From the NCBI GenBank assembly GCA_030612365.1, contig JAUWOA010000004.1, forward strand, positions 1 to 55,161: a stretch of DNA of 55,161 nt, in the 5' to 3' direction. This document shows, piece after piece, positions 1 to 12,438 of the stretch (positions are counted from its first letter, which is position 1; every line of letters begins with the position of its first letter). The notes below the pieces were generated by a model. It worked only from the letters and a program-made list of their open reading frames with translations, did no database searches and was not told where the DNA came from. This DNA is from Candidatus Thorarchaeota archaeon. Lineage in GTDB: Archaea > Asgardarchaeota > Thorarchaeia > Thorarchaeales > Thorarchaeaceae. Both the position numbers and the translations under genes were made by a program.

Positions 1-43
1 GAACAAGAATGGGAGTGAACTCGTCTGACCGGACTGGTCAGAG

Positions 44-51
44 TTTATATA
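44..51 (+). promoter_or_regulatory. TATA box of the tnpB gene
   Basis: The sequence TTTATATA lies 16-19 nt before the GTG/ATG start codons at 67 and 70. This is close to the usual archaeal TATA-to-start distance for leaderless or nearly leaderless transcripts. Position and composition are seen; promoter activity is inferred. Confidence 0.45.
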
Positions 52-66
52 TCCTCGAAGGCGAAC

Positions 67-1746
67 GTGATGGTTCAATCCCAAACCCCAGTAATCAGTG
101 TCAAGATTCCCATCAACTGGGAAGCTATGACCAAACGGTCACGCCAAAGACTGACGCAGATTATGGGTCGGGATACCAGAGTGATTCGAGCGCTTGTTGG
201 CATTATCGAAGCGAATGAACTTGACCTTCTGCGAGGAAGGAATAGGAAACGCATCGACGAAAGCAAACTTCATGCCATGACTATGACAGCAGTGAGGACT
301 ACATGTGACACAAATCAGAGATTGGTTGTCAAGTACGATCTCAAAGCTCGCTTTCCAAGAGCTTCAGCAAACGAATTAACTGAGTGTCGGAGGGCTGCAG
401 TTGCGAATTATGAGAGCTACTTGGCTCTTCGTGCGAAAAAGTGGCGTCGTGCATCGAGGCCCTGCGAAATAAACCGCTCTCGGAGAATTCCTCGGTGGGT
501 ATATATCCCCTACAGAGCGAAGCTCGTCGAGCATAGAACGAGAGCTGCCCGTTGGTGGATCAATCTGAGGGACTCTCTGGACTCAACCCCTGAGGGTCGA
601 AAAACCCACGACAGACTGTTAGTACCTCTGAAGACGTCGCCATTCCATCTTAGCCAGCTTCGGCGGGGAAATCCAAAGGCACTGCAAGTCTTCAAAGACC
701 GAGAAGGCAAATGGTGGACTACAGTTGCAGTGAGATTATCAACTGTTGAAACTAGCCCTTCAAACCAACAATCTGCAGCTGTTCTGGGAATTGACCTTGG
801 TATCAACCGAGCAGTCTGCACCACACTACTTACGCCCAAGAAAGTGTCTGAAACTCGGTACTTCTACCAAGAAGATAAAGCCAAGCTGATGGTCAAGTAT
901 GATGAACTGGTCGCACAACTACAACAAGAATTCGACACTCGTAAGAACAAAGGACTGCACTACGAAGGAGTGTTAACCAAGCTCAAGACTCTCCGATTGA
1001 AGAGAGAGAAGGTCGCCAAGGAGCATGATCGGCTTCTTGTAAGTCAGCTCCTTGCCTACATCAAGACTCTCAATGAAGAGTTCGAACTCTATATCGCCCT
1101 CGGTAGACTGAAGGGGATTAGAGGTAGCGCTCGAAAGGGAAACTACAAGGGTCGGAAGTTCCGCGGGATGGTCCATAGGTGGTCCTTCTCCCGCATTACT
1201 CTCTCTCTCAAACACGGACTATCTCAGCTTGGGTGGAAGGTTGAGGGGAAGAGTGCTAGATTCCAAACGGTGCCTGAAGCTTGGACCTCCATCCTATGCT
1301 GGAAATGTGGTCGCAAGGGAATCCGACCTAAGCAGTCAATTTTCGTATGTCATACTTGCGGCTTTCGCACGAATGCAGACCGCAATGGCTCGCTAAATAT
1401 CGCGCGTCGCCTAATTAAGCTCACTCCCGCACTTCGGGATGAGAAAGGACTAGGGCGTTGGGCTCTCCCCGAGAGAGCTCCAGCCCCGAAGGCCGCGAGG
1501 AAGATTCGTTCTTCTAAACGGAAGTCCCCACTCCCCTCTAAGGATGATACATCACATCTTGGGGAGTCCGCGGCTATTCACTCTGCTCAATTGAGCCTTC
1601 TTGACTTCGGCGACGGAGTTCAGAAGAGTGATGATGACCTTGCCGTGGTAAGAACTGTGGAAAAACTCTCTGCCACTGGAGATGATGCAATCAGGATAGG
1701 GCAGAAGAGAGAAGCCAGGACTACAGGAGGGATTCAATCCCGATGA
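67..1746 (+). CDS. tnpB: TnpB-family RNA-guided endonuclease (IS200/IS605-type OrfB)
   Basis: Predicted RuvC-like, omega-RNA-guided DNA nuclease of the TnpB/IS1341 class, 559 aa. The RuvC-I aspartate is D243 in the LGIDLG motif. A four-cysteine zinc finger (CWKCG and CHTCG) follows around residues 411-431, and the RuvC-III aspartate is D438 in NADRNGSLNIA. At the canonical RuvC-II glutamate position (about residue 346, in IALGRLKG) there is no glutamate; instead an acidic residue, E404, sits three residues before the TS of the zinc-finger lead-in, as described for Fanzor and related TnpBs. About 115 residues follow RuvC-III, longer than many TnpBs, and this tail probably overlaps the omega-RNA-coding DNA. 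Start may be GTG 67 or ATG 70. No TnpA is visible, so it is either a stand-alone tnpB or its partner lies left of the window. Confidence 0.93.
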   Translation: MMVQSQTPVISVKIPINWEAMTKRSRQRLTQIMGRDTRVIRALVGIIEANELDLLRGRNRKRIDESKLHAMTMTAVRTTCDTNQRLVVKYDLKARFPRASANELTECRRAAVANYESYLALRAKKWRRASRPCEINRSRRIPRWVYIPYRAKLVEHRTRAARWWINLRDSLDSTPEGRKTHDRLLVPLKTSPFHLSQLRRGNPKALQVFKDREGKWWTTVAVRLSTVETSPSNQQSAAVLGIDLGINRAVCTTLLTPKKVSETRYFYQEDKAKLMVKYDELVAQLQQEFDTRKNKGLHYEGVLTKLKTLRLKREKVAKEHDRLLVSQLLAYIKTLNEEFELYIALGRLKGIRGSARKGNYKGRKFRGMVHRWSFSRITLSLKHGLSQLGWKVEGKSARFQTVPEAWTSILCWKCGRKGIRPKQSIFVCHTCGFRTNADRNGSLNIARRLIKLTPALRDEKGLGRWALPERAPAPKAARKIRSSKRKSPLPSKDDTSHLGESAAIHSAQLSLLDFGDGVQKSDDDLAVVRTVEKLSATGDDAIRIGQKREARTTGGIQSR

Positions 1747-1847
1747 TGGTTGTCAAAGACCCTGCTTGCCTTCAGGTAGCACTGAAGGTTCGCGGTGACG
1801 CTGGGCGGGGTAAGGGTGGAACACAGAAGTCCGTAGACGCGGTTCAC
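1700..1847 (+). ncRNA. Candidate omega RNA (reRNA) scaffold at the tnpB 3' end
   Basis: TnpB guide RNAs are normally made from the 3' end of tnpB and the adjoining right end of the element. Just after the tnpB stop there is a 7-bp hairpin, CCTTCAG (1769-1775) with CTGAAGG (1782-1788), a GC-rich purine tract, and then a short stem CCGT/GCGG (1831-1834 with 1839-1842) followed directly by TTCAC (1843-1847). A terminal stem followed by a UUCAC-like end is, from memory, common in archaeal omega RNAs. If the scaffold ends at 1847, the guide would begin at 1848 and run toward the tRNA gene. The 5' boundary is arbitrary; function is inferred. Confidence 0.4.
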
Positions 1848-1870
1848 TCACTGTTTAGGAAAGGAATGGT

Positions 1871-1941
1871 GCGCCTGCCGGGAATCGAACCCGGGTCACC
1901 ACCTTGGAAGGGTGGAATCATTGCCCCTAGACTACAGGCGC
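1871..1941 (-). tRNA. tRNA-Gly (anticodon TCC)
   Basis: Read on the minus strand the 71-nt sequence folds as a complete cloverleaf. The 7-bp acceptor stem is GCGCCTG with CAGGCGC, the D arm contains GTCTAGGGG, and the anticodon stem CCACC/GGTGG encloses the loop CTTCCAA, giving anticodon TCC. The T arm is CCGGG-TTCGATT-CCCGG. No intron is present and CCA is not encoded. Its 3' end is about 24 nt from the proposed end of the TnpB element, and its 5' flank carries the short repeat array. Confidence 0.96.
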
Positions 1942-1948
1942 GATTGTC

Positions 1949-2182
1949 CGCACGCGGACGGTCAGTGGAAGGCTTGGATCATATTGGACTATGATGCGAT
2001 CTCACGGGCGGTCAGTGGAAGGCTGCCGTCCCAAACCAGACTACACAAGGCTGTGTTTCGGATGGCTCACTACTCCTTCGCGTTTTAAGGATGTTGTTGA
2101 AGTGGGTCTATCAGGACGGTCAGTGGAAGGCTCGAGTCATGTTGAAGCAGAAAGCGCTATCATGGATGGTCAGTGGAAGGGT
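1949..2182 (+). repeat. Array of four short direct repeats, about 50-nt spacing
   Basis: A 19-nt core, GGACGGTCAGTGGAAGGCT, occurs at 1956-1974, 2006-2024 (one change), 2114-2132 (exact) and 2164-2182 (two changes). Up to 7 nt upstream (CTATCAY or TCTCAC) is also partly shared, giving a 26-nt unit in the later copies. Start-to-start distances are 50, 108 and 50 nt, so a degenerate unit may lie near 2060 (GGATGG-TCA-like). A palindrome GTCCGC-AC-GCGGAC (1946-1959) overlaps the first copy. The array lies directly upstream of tRNA-Gly, and a fifth copy lies at 9432. No cas genes are present. Function unknown. Confidence 0.8.
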
Positions 2183-2428
2183 GAATCCTGGTGGGCAAAG
2201 CGCGTAATTTCGAACTGTCAGCAATGGTGTTGTCGCAGACTACGGACTAGTAGGGCGCAACGTGCTTGAAGGAGGTCTTTGGGTTCTTTATGACTGTCAA
2301 TTGCACATCATGGCGCAACAAAAAGCGGATACTGAGCCCATCATACTGTATTGCCTGCTGGAATGCGTCAGGGACCTTGGGAACCCCACAGGAGGATTCT
2401 AGATGGAATCTACAGGCCATTCATAGTA
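2183..2428. other. Gene-free stretch after the repeat array
   Basis: No reading frame with convincing coding character, RNA fold or further copy of the repeat was seen here. Only very short frames of about 30 codons occur, without a supporting ribosome binding site. Confidence 0.5.
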
Positions 2429-2905
2429 TCAGTCGGCGGAAGCTCCTGCGCTATTGAGATAAAGAATTGCATGACTCCACACAGCGAGAATCGATGGAAC
2501 CGGAATGGGGATGATAAACCTAATGAAGAACGAAGGGGCCATCGCAAGGGAGAAGACTATGATAGGGAGAATTGTCTGAAACACAAGGACCGCACAGGCA
2601 ATACACAGCCCAATGCCTGAATCTTCTGGATTCATTATTGTGTGGCGAATGTTCATGGTCAGGCCCAAGCCCAGCACTATCCATGTCACAGTCAACGTGA
2701 CGAGTGCCAGAGAATCAAAAGCGTGACCTCCCACGAGACCCAGTCCAATTCGGTAGTTCCACACGCTGATATAGCCCCATACAAAGACAAAGACTTGGTC
2801 AAAGGATTCCAACCATACACTGTCCCAATACATAATAGACATGGGCATGGCGAATGTAGAGATTACAATCAGGCACCATGTCTTTGAGTTCATTGGTTCA
2901 TCCAT
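2429..2905 (-). CDS. Small integral membrane protein, unknown function
   Basis: 158 aa with about four hydrophobic segments, at roughly residues 9-30, 60-82, 94-116 and 118-150, separated by short polar loops; it has no recognisable motif. The start ATG at 2905 has a purine-rich GGTGAAA about 8 nt upstream; a second ATG follows four codons later. The gene stands alone between the repeat array and an unassigned stretch. I do not recognise the family. Long hydrophobic segments in an open frame favour a real gene over a chance frame, but conservation cannot be judged here. Confidence 0.5.
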   Translation of the reverse strand: MDEPMNSKTWCLIVISTFAMPMSIMYWDSVWLESFDQVFVFVWGYISVWNYRIGLGLVGGHAFDSLALVTLTVTWIVLGLGLTMNIRHTIMNPEDSGIGLCIACAVLVFQTILPIIVFSLAMAPSFFIRFIIPIPVPSILAVWSHAILYLNSAGASAD

Positions 2906-3292
2906 TGTCTTTCACCGCACCCACGCCACAAACACTGTGCATCCCTTATCGATCGCGAGAGGAGGTCATGTAACTTCGATGGAACGGAAACAGGAATCTA
3001 TTGAGTCCAAGAAGCGAAAGCATGAAGCATTATGCCTTGCCAACCACGGACTGGCACTCCCAAGATATTGATACTCATACCTTTGAGAAAAGCCTTTCTG
3101 GATGAGCCCTACTTTCACTCCCGCGGCTCGCTGGGCCGAACCACCAGACACCACCATAGCTCCCAGATCATAGAGGATGACCTAAATGCTCATCAGTTGT
3201 TGTCTAGATACGGCGTTAATAAACAAATGAAAAAAGGTTTGCAGCAATCAATTACGATGGAAGATACTCAATGTCCAAACAGGTAATGAAGC
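2906..3292. other. Intergenic stretch without a convincing gene
   Basis: Several frames of 60-85 codons overlap here on both strands, but none has a good ribosome binding site, a recognisable motif or sensible hydrophobicity. An AT-rich segment around 3210-3240 may carry the promoter of the membrane protein that begins at 3293. Confidence 0.4.
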
Positions 3293-4030
3293 ATGACTGA
3301 AAGCAAACTGGGTGTCGATACTCACAGGAGCTCCCGGGTTATTCATTACTTCGCATTCACATTGGCGTATTGTGTGAGTATAGTCTTCGCAGTCATACTA
3401 GGAGCCACTCTTGGCCTAGTCCCGCCTATCGACTTCTGGTTACGAATTGCAGGGCCTTTTTTCATTCATGTTTCGATTATAGGACTGTGGCTCTTCATCG
3501 TATTTCTGCCTATCTTGTTCGTGACTAACCTGAACGTTATATGGTTCGGACGGGTTCTCCAGCAGAGATTCGTTTCTACTTCCGATGCCATCAGGACCGT
3601 ACTCGGGGTGATTGTTGCGGCTCCTTTGCTCATTATCGCCGTGTGTATCTATATCCTTATGGGCCACATATTCATCTGGCCGGTCGTAATACTTGTCTTA
3701 GGCCCGATTCTATCTGGGTTCCCGCTCGTCTATGTACTCGTCATCATTGGGATTATGACCAAAGACACAAAGCAACTCATCTCAGACTGTGCAAAGAACC
3801 CTCGTTTTTGGTTTGTGTCCCTCTTGTTGATTGCCATTCTTCTCTTCCCCCTGGCCGCCCTAGGTCTCCCATTACAAAAGGCCTATTTCCAGTACTTCCA
3901 GTCAGAAGAGCTCTTCCTAATGAACATCCCTGGCCTCGTTGTCAGGGCACTGATGATAGCATCTGTCTTACCCGCCATACCATTTGCATTCCTTCGGCTC
4001 AGAGATGAAATTCTCTTTGCCGAAAAATAA
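3293..4030 (+). CDS. Polytopic membrane protein, unknown function
   Basis: 245 aa with about six hydrophobic segments: residues about 18-42, 50-80, 98-125, 128-150, 172-200 and 215-235. It starts at ATG 3293, with AGGTAATG about 6 nt upstream. It has no conserved charged motif inside the membrane that would point to a transporter or enzyme. It ends 12 nt before the start of a broken surface-protein gene on the same strand, so the two may have been co-transcribed. Family not recognised. Confidence 0.65.
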   Translation: MTESKLGVDTHRSSRVIHYFAFTLAYCVSIVFAVILGATLGLVPPIDFWLRIAGPFFIHVSIIGLWLFIVFLPILFVTNLNVIWFGRVLQQRFVSTSDAIRTVLGVIVAAPLLIIAVCIYILMGHIFIWPVVILVLGPILSGFPLVYVLVIIGIMTKDTKQLISDCAKNPRFWFVSLLLIAILLFPLAALGLPLQKAYFQYFQSEELFLMNIPGLVVRALMIASVLPAIPFAFLRLRDEILFAEK

Positions 4031-4042
4031 CCAGCAAGGAAC

Positions 4043-4726
4043 ATGAAGACCATGACTGGACGAAAGCGTCGATTAGCAGTACTCCTGGTTAGCTTACTCG
4101 TAATGTCAGTGGTATTTGCAGTATACATACTCGAGTTTAGCTCCAAGGTAGACTCTTCTCGATTGTGATGGGGGGTGAGCGAAGGGGTCCAATATGTGTA
4201 CGTGGTCAATGTCTGTGGCTTCAACATGACGGGCATCAGTAATGACAGCGTTGAGTGTCCTCTATCATTCGCACCGCTAAACAACACAAGAATCATCACG
4301 ACAGTATCATGCCTCCCAGACCTTCCCGGCCTCACAGATGCTAACTCATTCGCTACTGACGTAATTATCCAGACTAAGACTGAAGTCAGTTTGGAGAATG
4401 GAACAGAACTATCTGAACGGTATGATGACGCATTGGTGTCACTAATTTCCTTGACTTTGCTTCCCGTCGGTGACTGGTCACTGATTGATTCGTTATACGA
4501 AGATGAGGATCCAGAACCGCCATTCATGAAGACTTGGTATATCGCCAAGCAACATACTAGCTCCTTCGAGATTGGTTACACGTCGTATGGACCAGACTAT
4601 GCAAGTGGTTGGAATGGAAACCTATCTCTGACAACCGGACTGCCATACTCAGCCAATCTGTGGGCGTGGAATGCTGTTGAGTCCTTCTCATGGATACTCA
4701 CAATCACACTTCTATTGAATGATTGA
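4043..4726 (+). pseudogene. Surface protein gene interrupted by an in-frame TGA
   Basis: From ATG 4043 (AAGGA 3-7 nt upstream) the frame encodes an N-terminal membrane segment, then meets TGA at 4166-4168. It resumes in the same frame without a shift through 4726, about 227 codons in all. The downstream part is paralogous to the intact gene at 8669-9343: both have WG-V-EG about 43 residues in, the block LLPVGDW-L-DSLY, and the block SGW/SRW-GN-SLTTG-P. The TGA falls directly before the conserved Trp-Gly, where the paralogue has Thr. The simplest reading is a nonsense mutation; recoding or a reading error cannot be excluded. The C-terminus has a short hydrophobic stretch. The encoded protein would be membrane-anchored and extracellular. 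Confidence 0.7.
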
Positions 4727-4895
4727 GCGTGACCGGGTCTACATGCTTAGCATTGCTTCTCGAGTTTCCTAATCTTCTCCATGATCAGAACGTACCTTTG
4801 GATACCCCAAGCCCATTCAAGGCTAGAAGGAATAGCCTACATTGTTTCATCTCATCCTTCGTTAATAACTAAATTGTTCAAACGGCCCTATCCAG

Positions 4896-4922
4896 TAATA
4901 CAAGAATTCAGAGGTGAACCAG
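4896..4922 (+). repeat. 27-nt dispersed repeat I, copy 1
   Basis: The 27-nt sequence beginning TAATACAAGAATTCAGAGGT matches 8551-8577 with one change (A/G). Weaker similarity extends about 12 nt further left (GGCCC...). It lies in a gap between two broken genes. Confidence 0.75.
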
Positions 4923-4972
4923 CCACATCGTCCGATTCACATGTAATGTCCATCTGCTAGTCTTCAGACTAT

Positions 4973-5286
4973 ATGCTTAATACGAAGCGTACCAAGAGAA
5001 AGTGGGTATGTTTGTTGAAACAGTGGCATAGTGGACTGCTATTAATGCTCAGTAGCTTTGTAATCTGGAGTCTAGCTAACTCACTTCTTTTTCATTATAT
5101 TGTGAGCGTGTGGCATCCTGATTAGCATTTGGGGAACCAATATGGGTGATAGACCCTATTGGATTCATGATAATCTCAGTTCCAACAGGACTTGTGTTCT
5201 TTCTAGGAGTAATAGCATTCTTTGGGGATATGTTACCAAGAATAACGAACAAGAATGATGAGGGGAAAACAGCAGGTGTGGTATGA
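4973..5286 (+). pseudogene. Frameshifted relic of a two-helix membrane protein
   Basis: From ATG 4973 a frame of 50 codons encodes a basic N-terminus and a hydrophobic helix, ending at TAG 5123-5125. The plus-one-related frame from 5122 to TGA 5284-5286 then encodes a second hydrophobic helix (FMIISVPTGLVFFLGVIAFF) and a polar tail. Joining the two gives a protein of about 104 aa with two membrane segments. I infer a single gene broken by an indel near 5110-5122. The family is not recognised, and the join rests only on hydrophobicity and adjacency. Confidence 0.35.
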
Positions 5287-5384
5287 ATGGGAAGCAGCTT
5301 CGCTGGATGGATTCTCTATGCCTGCAGCGCGTTGCTTCCGGAAATGAAACACTGATTCAAGCAATCCTAAGGATGTGAAGTACA

Positions 5385-6713
5385 ATGATGAACAATATGC
5401 GCGTTCTCAAGAGAGTACTTGCTGGTCTTCTTGCCGTCCTCATCACAACGACCGCTTTCTTCTGGGTCATTCCTTATGTTGCCACCAACGTTGATAGAAA
5501 CACTTACAGCCAGCTCTCTATCGACCTGATACCTGAACATGTCTATCGGGACATGTATGTTGGAGACTTGAACTCCGATCAGCTGGATGACGTGGTTCTA
5601 ACTGGCTTTCAATCACTGCAGATTGCCATGCAGAACCAGTCTGGCGAATTCCAGCTGAGCACGTTGCTCGGCGCCAGGGAAACATATGGAGGACTGGTAG
5701 TCACAGACCTTGATGGAGATGCAGACCCCGATATATGCTGCAGGAATAGTACGAGCTCCTTCGTAGTTCTCTACAATGATGGGTCTGCCGATTTCGCGAA
5801 CCGGTCATTCTACAGTGTTGACTCAGCACAAAATATCCGTTCTCTGTTTCCGTTTCATCTTGAATACGAAAATAGAACGGACATCGGATTGACTCTCAGT
5901 GGTGATGATTACAGAATATGCCTTTACTCCAACAACGGACATGGGGACTTTTCTCTCAATCTCACAATTTCTTGCTCAAGTATTCCTGTCGCCGTAACAG
6001 GAGTTGATCCCGACCAGAATGGTCGTGGAGAGATAGCAATGCTTCATAACGACGGAAACTTCACAGTGGTTTCGAGTGTCTACCCCAGCAATGCCAGTCT
6101 GTTCATAAACATAGGGCAATGGATTGGCTATATCGACAATGCATGGATTTTGCCAGTGGACCTTGATGATGATTCAACTAAGGACTTCCTAGTGGTCGTC
6201 AATGACGGACCAAGATCCAGTCGAATTGTTTTCCTGAGAACATCAGCTACGGGATTCTCAGGAAGTCCGGTAGTGTGGTCATTTGCTTCTGCGTTCTTAG
6301 GCGCCAGTCTTGCAGACCTAGATAATGATGGCGATAGTGATTTTATTTTCACTCAGCTCTCAGGAGTCACAACTGTCTTTGAGAATGACCAAAATGGAAT
6401 ACCCAATCGCCACATGATTCTTCCAAGCCAGTCGTTACCACATTCACCAACCACAATGAGAACGAACCTTTCGGAATACCCCTCAGTAGCTGTCATAAAC
6501 CAGGTGGACGAATACTTGGTGGACTACAACCACATGGAGATAACAGTGGTTTCCAGGGAAACAGGAGTTCTTGCTGAATCCATATGGTTTGCCAGCCATT
6601 TCATGCACAATCCGATCCTGCTGGCTGGAAGAGTCGCCTCCGCCGTAACAGGTATTGCCTTGATTATCATAGTGGTCAAGCTTCTATCGCTAACCAAGCG
6701 ACCAGATAGCTAG
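5385..6713 (+). CDS. Membrane-anchored FG-GAP/VCBS repeat surface protein
   Basis: 442 aa. An N-terminal signal or membrane segment spans about residues 9-32 and a C-terminal transmembrane helix about 412-432, followed by a short basic tail. The ectodomain carries repeated calcium-binding-like DxDxDGxxD blocks: GDLNSDQLDDVV near residue 57, TDLDGDADPDI near 107, VDLDDDSTKDFLV near 260 and ADLDNDGDSDFI near 312. These are typical of the integrin-alpha-type FG-GAP beta-propeller. Likely role is extracellular adhesion or ligand binding; the ligand is unknown. ATG codons at 5385 and 5388 are both possible starts, with AAGGA about 13 nt upstream. The fold is established for the family; the role is inferred. 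Confidence 0.8.
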   Translation: MMNNMRVLKRVLAGLLAVLITTTAFFWVIPYVATNVDRNTYSQLSIDLIPEHVYRDMYVGDLNSDQLDDVVLTGFQSLQIAMQNQSGEFQLSTLLGARETYGGLVVTDLDGDADPDICCRNSTSSFVVLYNDGSADFANRSFYSVDSAQNIRSLFPFHLEYENRTDIGLTLSGDDYRICLYSNNGHGDFSLNLTISCSSIPVAVTGVDPDQNGRGEIAMLHNDGNFTVVSSVYPSNASLFINIGQWIGYIDNAWILPVDLDDDSTKDFLVVVNDGPRSSRIVFLRTSATGFSGSPVVWSFASAFLGASLADLDNDGDSDFIFTQLSGVTTVFENDQNGIPNRHMILPSQSLPHSPTTMRTNLSEYPSVAVINQVDEYLVDYNHMEITVVSRETGVLAESIWFASHFMHNPILLAGRVASAVTGIALIIIVVKLLSLTKRPDS

Positions 6714-6877
6714 GAAACCATGCCAAACACGTTCATTGCAATCCGGCCAGAGTTGGACGCTTTGTCTGTCCAGAAACGACACTGAACCTTGATCGAACGT
6801 GAACGATGTTCCTCACTGCGTTGATGTCAGCATGAATTTTATGCACAACAATCCTCCTTGATTTTGCAGGATTGCAT

Positions 6878-7312
6878 ATGTCAACGGGAAAAAAGCATTC
6901 ATCGACTGGTCGACTTGTCATACTGATAGCCAAGCACAAGACCACCCCGATAAGGAGCATCCTTGTTCTAGTTGTGTTTGTGATCTATCTTCCTTTTGTG
7001 TACCAGATTCATCTGGATATTCTTGCTCAATATGTCATCAATGGTGCTTTGTGGCCAAGCAGTGGTCATTGCCTTTTTCCTATTCCATTTAGCATCACGT
7101 GGACTCCGTTGGCAACTAACATTTCGATGCCTATTGCTCCTCAGCTTAGTGCTGGAGACCGTTTCATCTACGATTATTTCATCCCGAACGTGGGATTGAG
7201 GCTGCTGTGGTCAGCGCTATGGTTACTGTTGGGGCTCGCTTACATCTTCCGCCCCATAATCCCCAGTTTGAGGTCCAGAGATTCCCAAAGCAATCGAGCG
7301 GATGCAGACTAG
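6878..7312 (+). CDS. Small membrane protein with two helices flanking an outside loop
   Basis: 144 aa from ATG 6878; a TTG two codons upstream is an alternative start. A basic N-terminus is followed by a membrane helix at about residues 25-45. Next comes a loop of about 65 residues including AGDRFIYDYF, then a second helix at about 110-130 and a polar tail rich in Ser/Arg/Asp. The GD-F-Y pattern of the loop faintly recalls the GDEFVY of the paralogous surface proteins in this region, but too little is shared to claim homology. Function unknown. Confidence 0.5.
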   Translation: MSTGKKHSSTGRLVILIAKHKTTPIRSILVLVVFVIYLPFVYQIHLDILAQYVINGALWPSSGHCLFPIPFSITWTPLATNISMPIAPQLSAGDRFIYDYFIPNVGLRLLWSALWLLLGLAYIFRPIIPSLRSRDSQSNRADAD

Positions 7313-7326
7313 TCCTCTTGCTTTTG

Positions 7327-7887
7327 TCAACTCTTTGGCCGCAATACACCTCGTTTCATAACAGCACCAATTACCACCATCAATGTTACCACTCCAATGA
7401 TGGCCAGAACGATTACGGGAGTCGGGTCAGGGTCTGGCCAGTTCCATGCGTAGGAGTGCTGAATGACATCAGAAACACTACTATAACCGAGTGTGTCGTT
7501 GGCCACGTACCGGATATCCCAGATATAGACTCCGGGTTCAGGGACTTCGACATGAAGGTATGCCGCATAACGAGACCTTGTTGAGTTCTCATCCATGTCC
7601 TGCATGGTGATGTTAGACCATTGATCCTCAGTCCGGTTTCTGTATGAGGCTATGACAGTTTCGATTCCATCTGGATCTTCAACTGTGACTGTGAAGGTGA
7701 TAATGGTTTCAGGATCATATCCATTTGCATAGGAATCGCTATAGCTTAAGAATATGGGTCCCTGACCGTTGCTCAGTGCATGGCAGCACCTGAGAAAGCA
7801 TTGTGGCTCTTTGGTCCACGCAGGAGAAACACACATCAGGATGACCCAAGTGAGAACGGTCATCCTCAACAAGGAGATCCTTGCCAT
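7327..7887 (-). CDS. Secreted, C-terminally anchored beta-sandwich-like protein
   Basis: 186 aa from ATG 7887, preceded by GGTGGA 4-5 nt upstream; an upstream start at 7923 would put 12 residues ahead of the signal peptide and is less likely. A signal peptide covers about residues 1-25. The middle has alternating beta-strand character, with TITFTVTVEDPDGIETVIASY and NRTEDQW segments like Ig/PKD/cadherin-type surface domains. A transmembrane helix (about 155-178) and basic tail (KRGVLRPKS) end the protein. N-glycosylation sequons (NRT, NIT, NST, NDT) fit an extracellular location. Converges on the gene ending at 7312. Family not recognised. Confidence 0.65.
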   Translation of the reverse strand: MARISLLRMTVLTWVILMCVSPAWTKEPQCFLRCCHALSNGQGPIFLSYSDSYANGYDPETIITFTVTVEDPDGIETVIASYRNRTEDQWSNITMQDMDENSTRSRYAAYLHVEVPEPGVYIWDIRYVANDTLGYSSVSDVIQHSYAWNWPDPDPTPVIVLAIIGVVTLMVVIGAVMKRGVLRPKS

Positions 7888-8179
7888 CACTTCCACCATT
7901 CTAAAGTATGTGTGACTCTCCATTTAACCTCGTGGTCTTGCAATAGTGAGCGAAACTGAGGGATGGACTTGTTTCTTGGATTAGTCCTAGCTTCGGGCAT
8001 CGCACATCGAATCAGCAGGTTTGAGTAGTACATTGGCAAGCCGAAGCAATGTGTGCTCAGAGCTTGGTTTCTCATTCTTTGGATAATTCAAGGGAAGATG
8101 GAAGCACAGACGATGAGATTGGGAAGGAACCTACCAATGTACTTTAGGGAGAACTACATATTAATTCAGGGGGTCATTC

Positions 8180-8386
8180 ATGAAACAATCAGAACGTTGC
8201 CCCAAGTGTGGAAGTACACGGATTTGGAATGATGAGCATAGTTCGCGGAACAGGCGGGGAGCAATTATTATCTCTACGTGGAGAGTCGCAAGACAAGTCA
8301 CTTACGTTTGCACTAATTGTGGATACTCCGAGTATTATGTGGACACCAAAGGACTCCAGACCATCGAAAAACATGGAAGTTCATGA
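8180..8386 (+). CDS. Small zinc-ribbon protein
   Basis: 68 aa. CPKCG near residue 7 and CTNCG near residue 46 form a two-knuckle zinc ribbon of the kind found in many small archaeal transcription- or RNA-associated proteins. Between them is a basic, Arg-rich strand region. It starts at ATG 8180 with GGGGG about 7 nt upstream. It stands alone between two surface-protein genes of opposite orientation. The zinc ligands are seen; nucleic-acid binding is inferred. Confidence 0.7.
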   Translation: MKQSERCPKCGSTRIWNDEHSSRNRRGAIIISTWRVARQVTYVCTNCGYSEYYVDTKGLQTIEKHGSS

Positions 8387-8550
8387 AACAGCTCTATTGA
8401 TGTGTGACATGACATCTGCCGCCACTAAATAGCTCTCTATTGTCCAGTGACTGATATCATAATCATCACTGTTCTCCAAACTAAACCTTCTCCACGCTAG
8501 GCAGGAGCCAAGTCCATCTTAAGTACTGTGCACCCTAGGGCCCCGTCAGA

Positions 8551-8609
8551 TAATACAAGAATTCAGAGGTGAGCCAGATACGCCCTCTTCGAGGGTCTTA
8601 TGGGCTCCC
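8551..8609 (+). repeat. Composite of dispersed repeats I and II
   Basis: 8551-8577 is copy 2 of repeat I (copy 1 at 4896-4922). It is joined, with a 3-nt overlap (CAG), to copy 1 of repeat II at 8575-8609, which matches 9473-9507 in 32 of 35 positions. Repeat II contains the hairpin CCCTC-TTC-GAGGG. Elsewhere in the window the two repeats occur apart, so this looks like a junction. Confidence 0.75.
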
Positions 8610-8668
8610 GGTGAACAACACGATATCCGAATTCGGAGCTTGTCAATAGCTGTTTTATCTCGCTCCTA

Positions 8669-9343
8669 CTAGGTCACGAGTACTAGCCTGTCATTGTGAC
8701 GAGTGCCCGCGGCGCGGTATTTGGATACGGTCACTATGGGAATACCAGTGGTGAGAGACACATTTCCGCTCCATCTGGAAACGGTGTCAGTTCCGTATAA
8801 CAGATATCCGATGGAAAAGGAGTCCGCATAGGTCCTTGAGAGATACACTCCAGGATAGTACGCCATTTCCGTTTCGTTTGGATAGAGTGAGTCAAGAAGT
8901 GGCCAATCACCAACGGGAAGTAGGCATCGATACAATAATCTGTTGATGTAGTCCCTGAATATCGAAGGAATCTCCGACCCGTTCTCGAATCTACACTCAG
9001 TCTTGGGATAATTGAGGACTTCTTCTGCGAAGATATCACCATTTATGACCAACGGTAGAGATGGGAAACTGGTTACGTTGAACCTTACAAGGGTGTTGTT
9101 CATCGGAGCCAAGTAGGGTGGTCCCAAGATCATGTTTGAGCTGTTCTCGGGGTCTATCGATGTCATATAGCCGCCTATAACAACCAAGTAGACAAATTCG
9201 TCACCCTCGTTGACACCCCAGGTTAGACTGGATGCGTCTCTCAGACCAGATGAATTCCAGATCGAGAGAAGGCAGAAAGCAAGCACGACGATTGTAGCAA
9301 TCGTGGCAGCAGTCACCAGTGCGACACGGTTGCGTCTTGCCAT
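8669..9343 (-). CDS. Membrane-anchored surface protein, paralogue of the broken gene at 4043
   Basis: 224 aa. A basic N-terminus and signal/anchor helix span about residues 8-30, followed by an extracellular domain rich in Asn-X-Ser/Thr. Blocks shared with the interrupted gene at 4043-4726 are TWGVNEGDEFVYLV, the LAPMNNT region, LLPVGDWPLLDSLY, and the SFSIGYLLYGTD...SGNVSLTTGIP stretch. The end differs: it closes with a short basic tail instead of a hydrophobic helix, so the C-terminus may itself be altered. The gene is bracketed by 35-nt direct repeats at 8575-8609 and 9473-9507. Family not recognised; location at the cell surface is inferred. Confidence 0.75.
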   Translation of the reverse strand: MARRNRVALVTAATIATIVVLAFCLLSIWNSSGLRDASSLTWGVNEGDEFVYLVVIGGYMTSIDPENSSNMILGPPYLAPMNNTLVRFNVTSFPSLPLVINGDIFAEEVLNYPKTECRFENGSEIPSIFRDYINRLLYRCLLPVGDWPLLDSLYPNETEMAYYPGVYLSRTYADSFSIGYLLYGTDTVSRWSGNVSLTTGIPIVTVSKYRAAGTRHNDRLVLVT

Positions 9344-9431
9344 AAGCCTGTCCCCGTAGTGGTTATGCGGGTATGCAGAAGAACATTCCTTTCCACGTAC
9401 GAGATGGTTTGCGCAGAGAACACAATCTCAC

Positions 9432-9450
9432 GGACGGCCAGTGGAAGGCT
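9432..9450 (+). repeat. Fifth, distant copy of the tRNA-flanking repeat
   Basis: GGACGGCCAGTGGAAGGCT, one change from the core of the array at 1949-2182. The preceding TCTCAC also matches copy 2 of that array (1999-2005). It lies 23 nt before repeat II copy 2. Confidence 0.75.
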
Positions 9451-9472
9451 GAGGTCCGTGAAGGCGTTCTAA

Positions 9473-9507
9473 CAGACACGCCCTCTTCGAGGGTCTTGTG
9501 GGTTCCC
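9473..9507 (+). repeat. Dispersed repeat II, copy 2
   Basis: Matches 8575-8609 in 32 of 35 positions and has the same CCCTC-TTC-GAGGG hairpin. The two copies bracket the intact surface-protein gene 8669-9343 in direct orientation, about 0.9 kb apart. Confidence 0.75.
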
Positions 9508-9640
9508 TGCTACAAACTAAGTAGTGAAGTAGCATATCATTGGTCCAACCTACAATGAACGGTTGAGATAGGTGCACGCAAAGAAACGTAATCTACGACA
9601 TCAGTCTCGTTAACGGAGTATCAACTAACAGCGCGAGGCG

Positions 9641-9656
9641 GTGTCCCGAAGGACAC
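9641..9656 (-). terminator. UUCG-capped hairpin at the stop of the zinc-ribbon regulator
   Basis: On the minus strand GTGTCC-TTCG-GGACAC forms a 6-bp stem with a C(UUCG)G tetraloop, touching the last base of the TAG stop at 9656-9658. No T-tract follows, so it may be a processing or stability element instead of a terminator. Confidence 0.35.
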
Positions 9657-10015
9657 TAATAGCCCCATTCCTGTCCGAGTCTCTGCCTGTACCAGCGTTG
9701 ACCGCGTTTGGTCAATGCGTACTTACCACCTATGTCTTGGATCAAGCCCATATTTTCCATGTTCTCAATCACACCGAAGAGCTTGTCATCAGAGGCACCA
9801 GTGACCTCCCTCAACATCGGGAAGGTCATCTTTCCATTTCGCTTCAAGTGCTGAGCAACTTCGTATTTGCCGACCGCTCTGGTATCCCTTCGAGTCATTA
9901 TATTGCCACAGTTGGTGCAGAGAAGATCGCCCTTGGAATCATCCCTGGCGACTTCCTTACTCCCGCATATCGGGCAGGTTGTCTTTGCAAATCTTAGACC
10001 GCGTCGATGTGACAT
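9656..10015 (-). CDS. Zinc-ribbon plus winged-helix protein
   Basis: 119 aa. The N-terminal TFIIB-like zinc ribbon has CPICG near residue 14 and CTNCG near residue 33. A winged-helix domain follows (about 50-110): VAQHLKRNGKMTFPMLREV looks like the first helices, then GVIENMENMGLIQDI and GKYALTKRGQRW as recognition helix and wing. Small archaeal proteins of this build are putative transcription factors. Its stop lies by a UUCG hairpin. It is upstream of nothing on its own strand, and the next minus-strand genes (the redox operon) end 105 nt behind it. DNA binding is inferred from the fold. Confidence 0.75.
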   Translation of the reverse strand: MSHRRGLRFAKTTCPICGSKEVARDDSKGDLLCTNCGNIMTRRDTRAVGKYEVAQHLKRNGKMTFPMLREVTGASDDKLFGVIENMENMGLIQDIGGKYALTKRGQRWYRQRLGQEWGY

Positions 10016-10120
10016 ATGTACGACCGAGTGAAGGGATTCCTAACCGTTGATAAAACTAGTGGCGTGACATGACCTTTGAGTCGTACCAATGACCGCAATT
10101 AAGGTGCGGATTTCGATTCT

Positions 10121-11557
10121 TTACGACTCCTCAGTTCCTGGTTGCGGTAGTCCCATGAGTTCTGCGTGCATTGAATTGGCCGCGATTCGACCAGCTCCCA
10201 TGGCCAAGATTACTGTTGCTGCCCCTGTCACGATATCGCCGCCTGCCCAGACCATTGGCATACTGGTGCGATTGTTCTCGTCCACCTCGATGTATCCCCA
10301 GCGGTTGAGTTCCAGGTCTTTCATGGTCTTCGTCAAGACTGGATTGGCTCCTGAACCAATGGCCATTATTACCTGGTCACACTCTATCTTGAAGAACGCA
10401 CCCTCTATCGGTATTGGCCGCCGGCGACCACTGTCGTCGGGTTCTCCAAGTTCCATCCGAATGCACTCCATACCAGTAACTCTGCCATTCTCTCCGAAAA
10501 GCCTGACGGGGTTTGAGAGCAGTTTGAATTCAATGCCCTCTTCTTCAGCATGGTGAACTTCCGCACTTCTTGCGGGTAGTTGTTCTCTGGCACGACGATA
10601 GACTATGGTGACGTCCGCACCTAGGCGTTTCGCTGTTCGTGCTGAGTCCATTGCTACATTTCCTCCACCAACGACGCAGACGCGCCTGCCTGGCGGAAGT
10701 GGTGAATCATACTCGGGGAACAGATATCCCTTCATTAGGTTCGATCTGGTGAGATACTCGTTGGCTGAGAAGACACCGTTCATGTCTTCGCCATCGATTC
10801 GCATGAATCTTGGAAGGCCCGCGCCAACGCCGATATAGACGGCATCGTATCCGAGTTCATCAAACAACTCGTCAATGGTCATGGTCAATCCTACAACAAC
10901 GTTCATCACGAACTTGACACCTAGGCTTTCCATGTAACCAACTTCAGCCTTCACTATCTCCTTCGGAAGCCTGAATTCCGGAATACCGTAAATGAGGACA
11001 CCCCCAGCTTCATGCAGTGCTTCATAGACTGTGACCTCATGCCCCTTGAGAACGAGGTCTCCTGCAACAGTAAGTCCTGATGGTCCTGATCCGATGACTG
11101 CTACCTTCTTGCCGGTGGATGAGTCTTTCTTTGGAATCTTGACTAGGTTATTGTTTCTCTCGTAGTCTGCTACAAATCTTTCGAGAGCACCAATAGAAAC
11201 TCCTCCAAAGCGCTTCCACAATGTGCAGGCTTCCTCACATTGAATTTCTTGTGGACAGACACGACCGCAAACTGCAGGAAGAACATTGGTTTCCTTAATC
11301 TCCCTGGCTGCTTCTGCGAATTTGCCTTCAGCTACAAGTGCGATGAACTCAGGAATGTGGACGCCAACGGGGCATCCAGCAACGCATGGCATATTCCTGC
11401 AACTTATGCATCTCTGAGCCTCCAGCATAGCCTGCTCAGCTGTCAATCCGAATGGAACTTCTTCAAAATTGGCTGCACGTGCAGCAGGATTCTGCTCTGG
11501 CATCTTCGCTCTGGGGATTGCCATCCTCTCTTTTGCTGTTAGAGTCTTGCCGCCCAT
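10121..11557 (-). CDS. NfnB/GltD-like FAD- and Fe-S-containing NADPH oxidoreductase subunit
   Basis: 478 aa. The N-terminal Fe-S region has CISCRNMPCVAGCPVG (about residues 51-66) and CGRVCPQEIQCEEAC (about 96-110). It continues with an FAD-binding GSGPSGLTVAGDL Rossmann motif (about 155) and an NADPH-binding VVGGGNVAMDSA motif with following YRR (about 295-320), ending in the GxxA-GGDIVTG FAD motif. This is the build of glutamate synthase small subunit and of NfnB, the large subunit of NADH-dependent ferredoxin:NADP reductase. ATG 11557 overlaps the upstream stop (TGATG) with AAGGAGG upstream, so the longer start at 11578 is rejected. No glutamate synthase large subunit is nearby, and the neighbour is NfnA-like; an Nfn role is therefore favoured. 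Confidence 0.88.
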   Translation of the reverse strand: MGGKTLTAKERMAIPRAKMPEQNPAARAANFEEVPFGLTAEQAMLEAQRCISCRNMPCVAGCPVGVHIPEFIALVAEGKFAEAAREIKETNVLPAVCGRVCPQEIQCEEACTLWKRFGGVSIGALERFVADYERNNNLVKIPKKDSSTGKKVAVIGSGPSGLTVAGDLVLKGHEVTVYEALHEAGGVLIYGIPEFRLPKEIVKAEVGYMESLGVKFVMNVVVGLTMTIDELFDELGYDAVYIGVGAGLPRFMRIDGEDMNGVFSANEYLTRSNLMKGYLFPEYDSPLPPGRRVCVVGGGNVAMDSARTAKRLGADVTIVYRRAREQLPARSAEVHHAEEEGIEFKLLSNPVRLFGENGRVTGMECIRMELGEPDDSGRRRPIPIEGAFFKIECDQVIMAIGSGANPVLTKTMKDLELNRWGYIEVDENNRTSMPMVWAGGDIVTGAATVILAMGAGRIAANSMHAELMGLPQPGTEES

Positions 11558-12438
11558 CAGATCGCCTCCTTGCCGCAATTCTTACATCCGTCGTCTTTGA
11601 TTGCTCCGTCAGCTCTGCTTTGGTGGAACTGATATGCCAAGTTCTCTTCACCAACGTAAGCACCTGCCCTAGCGAATACATTATCCCAGTCCACCAAATG
11701 ACCATTGAAATCGGGCCCGTCAACGCAAGCGAATTTAGTTTCGCCTCCTACAAGAACTCTGCAACATCCACACATCCCGGTGCCATCGACCATGAGCGAA
11801 TTAAGGCTAACAATTGTGGGGATCCCTGCCGGTTCTGTCGCTCTTGAGGAAGTCATCATCATGTACGTGCACCCAACGAAGTGTGCATGGTCGATCTTCT
11901 CGCCCCTCTCCTCCAAGATCTTTATGGCCTCCCAGACATGGCCTCGCACTCCACGAGAGCCATCCGCAGTGGCGATGATGACTTCGTCTGCCTCCTCTCC
12001 AATCTTGTCTTCGTTATAGATGAGGTAGGACGTGCGAGCCTCCAGAAGAGCAATGACTTTGTTCCCCTGTTCCTTGAACGCCCTAGCCAGTGGGTAGATT
12101 CCTCCAAGACCGTAGCATCCACCCCCAAGGAGAACAGTTCCAACCTTCTCAATCTCTGTGGGTTTGCCAAGAGGCCCCACGAGTGTATAGACAGCTTCAC
12201 CCGGCTTCAAGCGAGAGAGTTTCATGGTTGAAACGCCAGCTTCCAAGTAGAATATCGTGATTGTTCCTTCTGAAGCGTCCCAATCGGAGAGTGTGAAGGG
12301 AATTCTCTCACCCTCTGCATCTGGAATCAAAATCACAAATTGCCCAGGCTTTGCATGACGAGCGATGGCTGGGGCTTCAAGTACAAGGCGCCTTACATTT
12401 GGAACTACTTGTTCGTTGATTACTATTGTGCCCTTCAT
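11557..12438 (-). CDS. NfnA-like FAD/NAD(P)-binding, 2Fe-2S subunit
   Basis: 293 aa. It resembles ferredoxin-NADP reductase-type subunits (dihydroorotate dehydrogenase electron-transfer subunit PyrK / NfnA / sulfide dehydrogenase beta). A beta-barrel FAD domain contains KPGQFVIL and RIPFTLSDWD, then comes the nucleotide-binding GGGCYGLGGIYPLARAF (about residue 106). A C-terminal 2Fe-2S motif, GTGMCGCCRVLVGGETKFAC, is seen at about 220-240. It overlaps its upstream and downstream genes by 1-3 nt. Together with the NfnB-like gene it forms an NfnAB pair, whose characterised members couple NADH and ferredoxin oxidation to NADP reduction by flavin-based bifurcation. Confidence 0.88.
   Translation of the reverse strand: MKGTIVINEQVVPNVRRLVLEAPAIARHAKPGQFVILIPDAEGERIPFTLSDWDASEGTITIFYLEAGVSTMKLSRLKPGEAVYTLVGPLGKPTEIEKVGTVLLGGGCYGLGGIYPLARAFKEQGNKVIALLEARTSYLIYNEDKIGEEADEVIIATADGSRGVRGHVWEAIKILEERGEKIDHAHFVGCTYMMMTSSRATEPAGIPTIVSLNSLMVDGTGMCGCCRVLVGGETKFACVDGPDFNGHLVDWDNVFARAGAYVGEENLAYQFHQSRADGAIKDDGCKNCGKEAI

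Follow-up and report, generated by a model that had tools for sequence, protein, structure and literature searches.

An array of tRNA-Gly(UCC) segments beside a TnpB-family gene in a Thorarchaeota archaeon: possible junctions of TnpB right ends with their target

In a 55,161-nt stretch of DNA from a Candidatus Thorarchaeota archaeon (contig JAUWOA010000004.1, positions 1 to 55,161; hereafter the window) a short array of repeat units lies directly upstream of a tRNA-Gly(UCC) gene and close to a gene of the TnpB family, the family from which Cas12 arose. The array is real, conserved and unusual. Its units are best read as the tips of TnpB right ends (...ACAGGTCAG) together with the adjoining tRNA-Gly(UCC) target, a reading to which we give about an even chance of being correct. 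In obligate mobile element-guided activity (OMEGA) systems the target adjoining the right end doubles as the guide. Our observations suggest a selfish element that repeatedly cuts into the tRNA-Gly gene and replaces it. In the following, G000 denotes the genome from which the window originates and the other G numbers denote the compared genomes. The array and its tRNA comprise these features:

1867..1941, minus strand: complete tRNA-Gly(UCC) gene (ARAGORN; Rfam RF00005, 63.1 bits)
1942..1959, minus strand: tRNA leader with the hairpin GTCCGC-AC-GCGGAC at 1946-1959; a homologous leader is present in G006
1960..1983, plus strand: unit 1, GGTCAG and the guide-like TGGAAGGCTTGGATCATA, antisense to the tRNA-Gly D-stem and anticodon arm up to nucleotide 37
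2010..2117, plus strand: unit 2 or 108-nt module, with GGTCAG at 2010-2015, the antisense tRNA-Gly 5' half ending at nucleotide 37 at 2016-2051, a leader and a TATA box at 2082-2089
2118..2141, plus strand: unit 3, GGTCAG and TGGAAGGCTCGAGTCATG, matching tRNA-Gly of G063 at 16/17 positions
2168..2191, plus strand: unit 4, GGTCAG and TGGAAGGGTGAATCCTGG
2205..2240, plus strand: diverged unit further downstream, AACTGTCAGCAATGGTGTTGTCG, a homologue of the third module at other loci
9436..9459, plus strand: distal unit, GGCCAG and TGGAAGGCTGAGGTCCGT, adjoining the gene at 8669-9343

The initial annotation had described four copies of the unit at steps of 50, 108 and 50 nt as well as one further copy far off, and both descriptions were confirmed. 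GGTCAGTGGAAGG occurs exactly at 1960, 2010, 2118 and 2168 on the plus strand; a copy with a single mismatch follows 7.3 kb further on, at 9436. Seven exact copies were found genome-wide as compared to about 0.07 expected at equal base frequencies, the reversed control pattern had no exact copy in the genome, and none of 100 shuffles reached an equal number of matches in the window. Therefore, the repetition is not a chance effect. This and all other genome-wide statements are based on pattern and model searches of fragmented metagenome-assembled genomes. The initial annotation had named two outcomes that would speak against it, a unit scattered randomly over the genome and a unit absent in all relatives. 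Neither was observed: the copies are not at random positions, and the unit is present in the same genus and in sister genera. Two genomes of the same genus carry 10 and 11 exact copies, mostly as pairs at 49-50 nt, and the copies in this genus are intergenic and confined to one strand per contig. The spacing in sister genera is about 56-64 nt. In the window, in G006 of the same genus and in the sister genera the units stand immediately upstream of tRNA-Gly(UCC) and are antisense to it. Moreover, GATNNNAGCCTTCCACTGACC was found in 14 contigs of the GTDB set, 10 of which belong to Thorarchaeota; the remaining four are within the approximately seven expected by chance, a figure that is itself an estimate.

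Each unit is composed of GGTCAG and 17-18 nt antisense to the D-stem and anticodon arm of tRNA-Gly(UCC), beginning at position 37. Read in the sense of the tRNA, it terminates with ...GATCCGAGCCTTCCA, which covers the D-stem up to position 37, followed by CTGACC. The match to the tRNA extends over 14-18 nt, and in five of nine units p reached the minimum attainable in the shuffle test; the best units match at 17/18, 16/17 and 18/18 positions, and the segment TGGAAGGCTTGGATCATA of unit 1 matches the tRNA-Gly allele of G035 at 17/18. The junction at tRNA position 37/38 is exact in the units and in the 108-nt module and recurs in five genera, and conservation extends across at least five genera. 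Within a single array the units bear differing anticodon-stem alleles that recur in the tRNA-Gly genes of other genomes; of the 33 units, 5 match such an allele exactly or nearly so and 19 with at most one mismatch over 17 nt. Only two of the 33 come within one mismatch of their own tRNA-Gly, the other 31 having at least two mismatches, a comparison that is uneven since the best of many foreign alleles is set against a single own one. The rank of the own allele resembles that of an allele picked at random (mean rank 0.47). Judged from these alignments, the data reject a derivation of the units from the adjacent tRNA, without proving that the own allele is avoided.

The 108-nt step had been thought to contain a decayed unit. 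It holds a distinct module instead, in which a TATA promoter and a leader precede tRNA-Gly nucleotides 1-37. Over its full extent this module can be aligned with the G006 sequence from the promoter through the leader to tRNA-Gly position 37 (score 52, shuffle maximum 18), where it stops and CTGACC follows. A homologous module is located on G006 contig C49, and the module is also present in another species. The proposed 14-nt palindrome overlapping the first unit turned out to be two 6-nt arms (1946-1959) in the tRNA leader that abut unit 1. The array was rightly said to occupy the promoter region of the tRNA, as there is no TATA box at the normal distance; the one nearest to the intact tRNA (2082-2089) lies within the 108-nt module, about 140 nt upstream. 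Transcription of tRNA-Gly may start from this TATA box.

On the other side of the tRNA lie the TnpB gene and its right end:

67..1746, plus strand: TnpB-family RNA-guided nuclease gene, 559 amino acids (Pfam Cas12f1-like_TNB 1.7e-11; NCBIfam guided_TnpB 5.6e-23, the score lying under the curated cut-off)
1747..1866, plus strand: TnpB right end, with GGAACACAGAAG at 1818-1829 and GGTTCACTCAC at 1841-1851, reaching the 3' CCA end of tRNA-Gly; multi-copy 3' region

The gene encodes a RuvC and a zinc-finger domain, and the RuvC-I and RuvC-III Asp residues are present in the alignment. Its 3' region recurs in dozens of repeats across the genus. The motifs GGAACACAGAAG...GTTCACTCAC mark the right end and are separated from the tRNA-Gly 3' end by an almost constant distance, often 21 nt. 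Such right-end motifs were found within about 50 nt 3' of tRNA-Gly at 8 of 11 unit-bearing loci versus 1 of 19 unit-free loci (p=2e-4). The putative guide of the TnpB copy in the window would be antisense to the tRNA 3' end. Some TnpB right ends in G000 and its relatives end in ACAGGTCAG, and seven motif-bearing right ends run on to GGTCAG 40-45 nt later; beyond G000, right ends with GGTCAG occur in G005, G006, G007, G010 and G027. In G000:C91 a further element of the window's TnpB clade encodes an intact TnpB, with 57% identity to that of the window. Its right end ..TATGGAAACAGGTCAG abuts tRNA-Arg(UCG) sequence that begins in the anticodon loop and covers the 3' half (38/43 identical, L069 2380-2500). 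The 5' half of this tRNA-Arg was not found in the stretch L069. Thus two different tRNAs are attached to this sequence, both at the anticodon loop, and this is our main ground for reading GGTCAG as the element tip. The GGTCAG of the units would then descend from TnpB right ends, and cutting by TnpB would be the driver of the insertions.

The genomes of the genus hold dozens of stand-alone TnpB copies or remnants, mostly lacking a Y1 transposase. Since the copies are stand-alone and Y1 TnpA (PF01797) is absent from seven of eight genomes, we did not class this TnpB as a member of IS200/IS605. Serine recombinases of the IS607 kind are present in some genomes.

The comparison of loci points to insertions. 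Many unit-free members of the family have tRNA-Gly(UCC) 100-200 nt after the Nep1/EMG1 gene, with the TATA box CTTAAATC. The gap between Nep1 and tRNA-Gly is 1166-7892 nt at loci with units (n=6) versus 100-727 nt at loci without them (n=19; p=1.6e-4), a contrast that also holds when genus g5 is taken by itself (p=0.001). The Nep1 contig of G000 stops 20 nt past the gene and gives no gap value. In G029 an older tRNA-Gly of the G060 type is split, its promoter and first part being located at L045 8662 and its 3' part at L045 11389. The intervening DNA holds a 207-aa gene and four units, a promoter and a complete tRNA-Gly whose allele differs, and a BNR-repeat gene. The locus of G010 is organized likewise (L143 5593, L050 11326) and additionally has an older, second 5' remnant, so that tRNA fragments are found at the element borders in both genomes. 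Additional 5' or 3' remnants of tRNA-Gly were detected in G001, G008, G021, G022, G061, G062 and G000:C53. The last of these carries two 3' remnants (L067 1341-1390 and 1780-1870), the first with a foreign acceptor stem (GGTCGC) and the second followed by a TnpB right end. Besides, non-canonical introns seem to interrupt the tRNA-Gly(UCC) genes missed by ARAGORN; they would lie in the T-loop in genus g4 (L159 946, L165 869, L166 265) and in the D-loop region in genus g8 (L161 5701, L162 1047).

In the mechanism that we propose, TnpB elements would enter tRNA-Gly copies at the anticodon loop (position 37/38). Entry at this loop would leave exactly a module of promoter and tRNA nucleotides 1-37 joined to CTGACC (tRNA sense) upstream. 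The locus would survive as the arriving DNA brings a complete, slightly different tRNA-Gly with its own promoter, and the 50-nt array would arise by repetition and recombination and reach further loci along with small cargo genes. If the tip is assigned correctly, each unit would be a tip plus a guide against tRNA-Gly, and the tandem array could represent either repeated scars or a guide array. The terminal approximately 16 nt of TnpB guide RNAs are copied from the flank, and ISDra2 TnpB cuts 15-21 bp from the transposon-associated motif (TAM) (PMC8612924). In the 5' remnants of older tRNA-Gly copies, the break points lie at 13-23 nt from the start of the guide, close to this cut range (PMC8612924). 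With the TnpB (OMEGA) systems of IS200/IS605 and IS607 our locus shares the TnpB gene and, on our reading, would also share the conserved right end, a guide formed by the flanking target and the cut 15-21 bp from the TAM (PMC8612924). It differs from OMEGA in that tRNA genes are the targets, tip and target are tandemly repeated without TnpB, TnpA (Y1) is mostly missing and the RuvC-II Glu is displaced or lost. In the literature searched, which omits most subscription papers, we came across no description of TnpB guide arrays directed at tRNA genes.

Several observations weigh against this reading. Among TnpB right ends taken without preselection just 4 of 11 have GGTCAG, and at the unit-bearing loci of G010, G021 and G034 the tRNA is not accompanied by a TnpB right end. 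The sequence upstream of GGTCAG is not significantly like TnpB right ends in most units (combined p=0.35), the exceptions being L043_9372 (p=0.013) and G061u4 (p=0.023). Because the unit backbones mostly cannot be aligned to right ends, the link between units and TnpB rests on a hexamer to nonamer and its context; here the reading is at its weakest. The range of the 5' break points is partly set by the detection range of the search, and simple TnpB insertion does not explain tandem arrays. Furthermore, the usual RuvC-II Glu is absent from its place in the whole local TnpB clade, which makes activity uncertain. An origin of the entire unit backbone from TnpB right ends was rejected, as the similarity is not significant for most units. 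In the clade with the altered RuvC-II (window 67-1746 and the TnpB copies L058, L059, L060, L069, L157, L190 and L191) the Glu is replaced (LYVAIGRLKNIR), and the invariant Glu is instead that of VPE(N/S/A)WTS, ahead of the zinc finger; the catalytic site may have been rearranged.

We consider it rather unlikely that the units are attachment scars of an integrase which integrates into the tRNA 5' half, the tandem units being accreted att sites and CTGACC an attP arm; the attP of an integrase-bearing element would then be expected as CCTTCCACTGACC. The insertion hot spot at tRNA-Gly is family-wide, and the anticodon-loop junction, the promoter-bearing 5'-half fragments upstream and the restored tRNA downstream fit pTN3-like integration (PMC8371274). 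In that account the 5' half is kept upstream, the promoter of the element drives the restored tRNA and the crossover lies in the anticodon loop; our locus departs from it by multiple tandem 50-nt units, a replacement tRNA of a different allele and no integrase found (PMC8371274). A precedent is the disrupted tRNA-Thr locus of Caldiarchaeum, where a mobile-element insertion left a 5' tRNA fragment 1.8 kb upstream of the new copy; it has a single fragment, a recombinase gene and no array (PMC3293823). However, no integrase was present among the scanned proteins of the window segment or of the G029 and G010 inserts, the PF00589 loci of the genus lack the unit and any tRNA-Gly piece, and PF16795 is absent from 14 genomes. 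Moreover, the 5' break points are scattered, the 50-nt tandem spacing is too short for whole elements, and GGTCAG at TnpB right ends is left unexplained.

Equally doubtful in our view is a natural cleave-and-rescue system, that is, a TnpB guide array in which each guide is directed against one tRNA-Gly(UCC) allele and the adjacent complete tRNA-Gly is the resistant replacement. We likewise find it hard to favour the more detailed form, in which the guides would destroy the essential tRNA gene of recipients and the same mobile segment would supply a mismatched tRNA-Gly. Guide-sized matches (16-18 nt) to several different alleles within one array argue for it, two of the four units of G029 being exact over 17 nt to alleles of other genomes, as do the mismatches of 31 of 33 units to their own tRNA and the splitting of the older tRNA-Gly with loss of the target region. 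Nevertheless, by rank the own tRNA fares no worse than a random allele, the unit backbone is not clearly omega-RNA-like, and several g1 units match no allele any more.

That the tRNA-Gly 5' region was simply duplicated in tandem and decayed, with homologous recombination spreading the copies and no element-specific process at work, would account for the mosaic arrangement of the units and for their content of tRNA and, in some genomes, leader-like sequence (CACTGACAATCGA). This reading is very improbable given the better match of other genomes' alleles, the one 37/38 junction in five genera, the split tRNA copies, the large inserts and G000:C91, where an unrelated tRNA seems to share both the junction and GGTCAG. 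A tandem duplication of the adjacent tRNA was rejected because the own allele is not the best match, and so was a unit consisting of the leader plus the full 5' half, as leader likeness is confined to CACTGACNATCGA and the remainder is not significant.

The initial annotation was right in seeing a regular, meaningful array next to tRNA-Gly. Its comparison with clustered regularly interspaced short palindromic repeats (CRISPR) stands as to the regular, guide-sized tRNA-Gly segments beside a TnpB-family gene. The array itself is not a CRISPR: the sequence between the units is conserved between loci and species, and there is neither a cas operon nor a leader. That cas genes are lacking is strictly true, except that the Cas12f/TnpB-family gene ends 213 bp before unit 1. 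No cas1 or cas2 was found among the main open reading frames scanned at positions 1-12438 of the window, and no genome-wide search was made for them. The locus shares with CRISPR arrays the regular spacing, guide-sized segments and a Cas12-family relative close by, and differs by conserved spacers from the host tRNA and by the lack of a leader and of nearby cas1/cas2. The array in the window has no identical repeats of 25 nt or more. A C/D-box small RNA array, considered because of AUGA...CUGA motifs seen by eye, was rejected as there is no terminal stem and no Rfam support; Rfam gave nothing but tRNA above threshold. A conserved RNA structure was also rejected (consensus fold of -1.7 kcal/mol, one compensatory pair). 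Two 18-19-letter patterns searched for a viral or free form had no match in viral contigs.

The array and the distal unit enclose the following segment:

2429..9343: variable segment made up of genes for small membrane proteins

Several of its genes recur between units in G006 in changed order (BLASTP families FAM4, 12, 19 and 20). Window 8669-9343, L039 7623-8303 and L040 4213-4890 are 81-83% identical, each with a unit on the start side, and the latter two, from two other species, have units on both sides. The same genes between units have different neighbours in each genome, and further families also swap neighbours at arrays. Homologous recombination between arrays suffices to account for this shuffling. 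A membrane protein family of about 470 amino acids with no Pfam or NCBIfam match recurs beside units in several genera (L049 7644-9089, L157 10656-11423, L043 12379-13776, L144 1868-3418, L040 1869-3284, L171 3686-5074). In G031:C124 (L051), from a genome of another genus, genes are near-identical to those of the window's genus, probably owing to a binning error.

If the units are junctions of TnpB right ends with their target, a TnpB family hits tRNA genes at the anticodon loop in Asgard archaea and leaves guide arrays. This would account for the splitting and replacement of tRNA genes in archaea and would provide a possible step from TnpB elements with a single guide towards CRISPR arrays. 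Engineered cleave-and-rescue gene drives would have a natural equivalent in an active array, which, if cleave-and-rescue indeed applies, would be a CRISPR-like array arisen from TnpB right ends. Even as scars, the units mark a recurrent insertion hot spot at tRNA-Gly(UCC) in Thorarchaeota.
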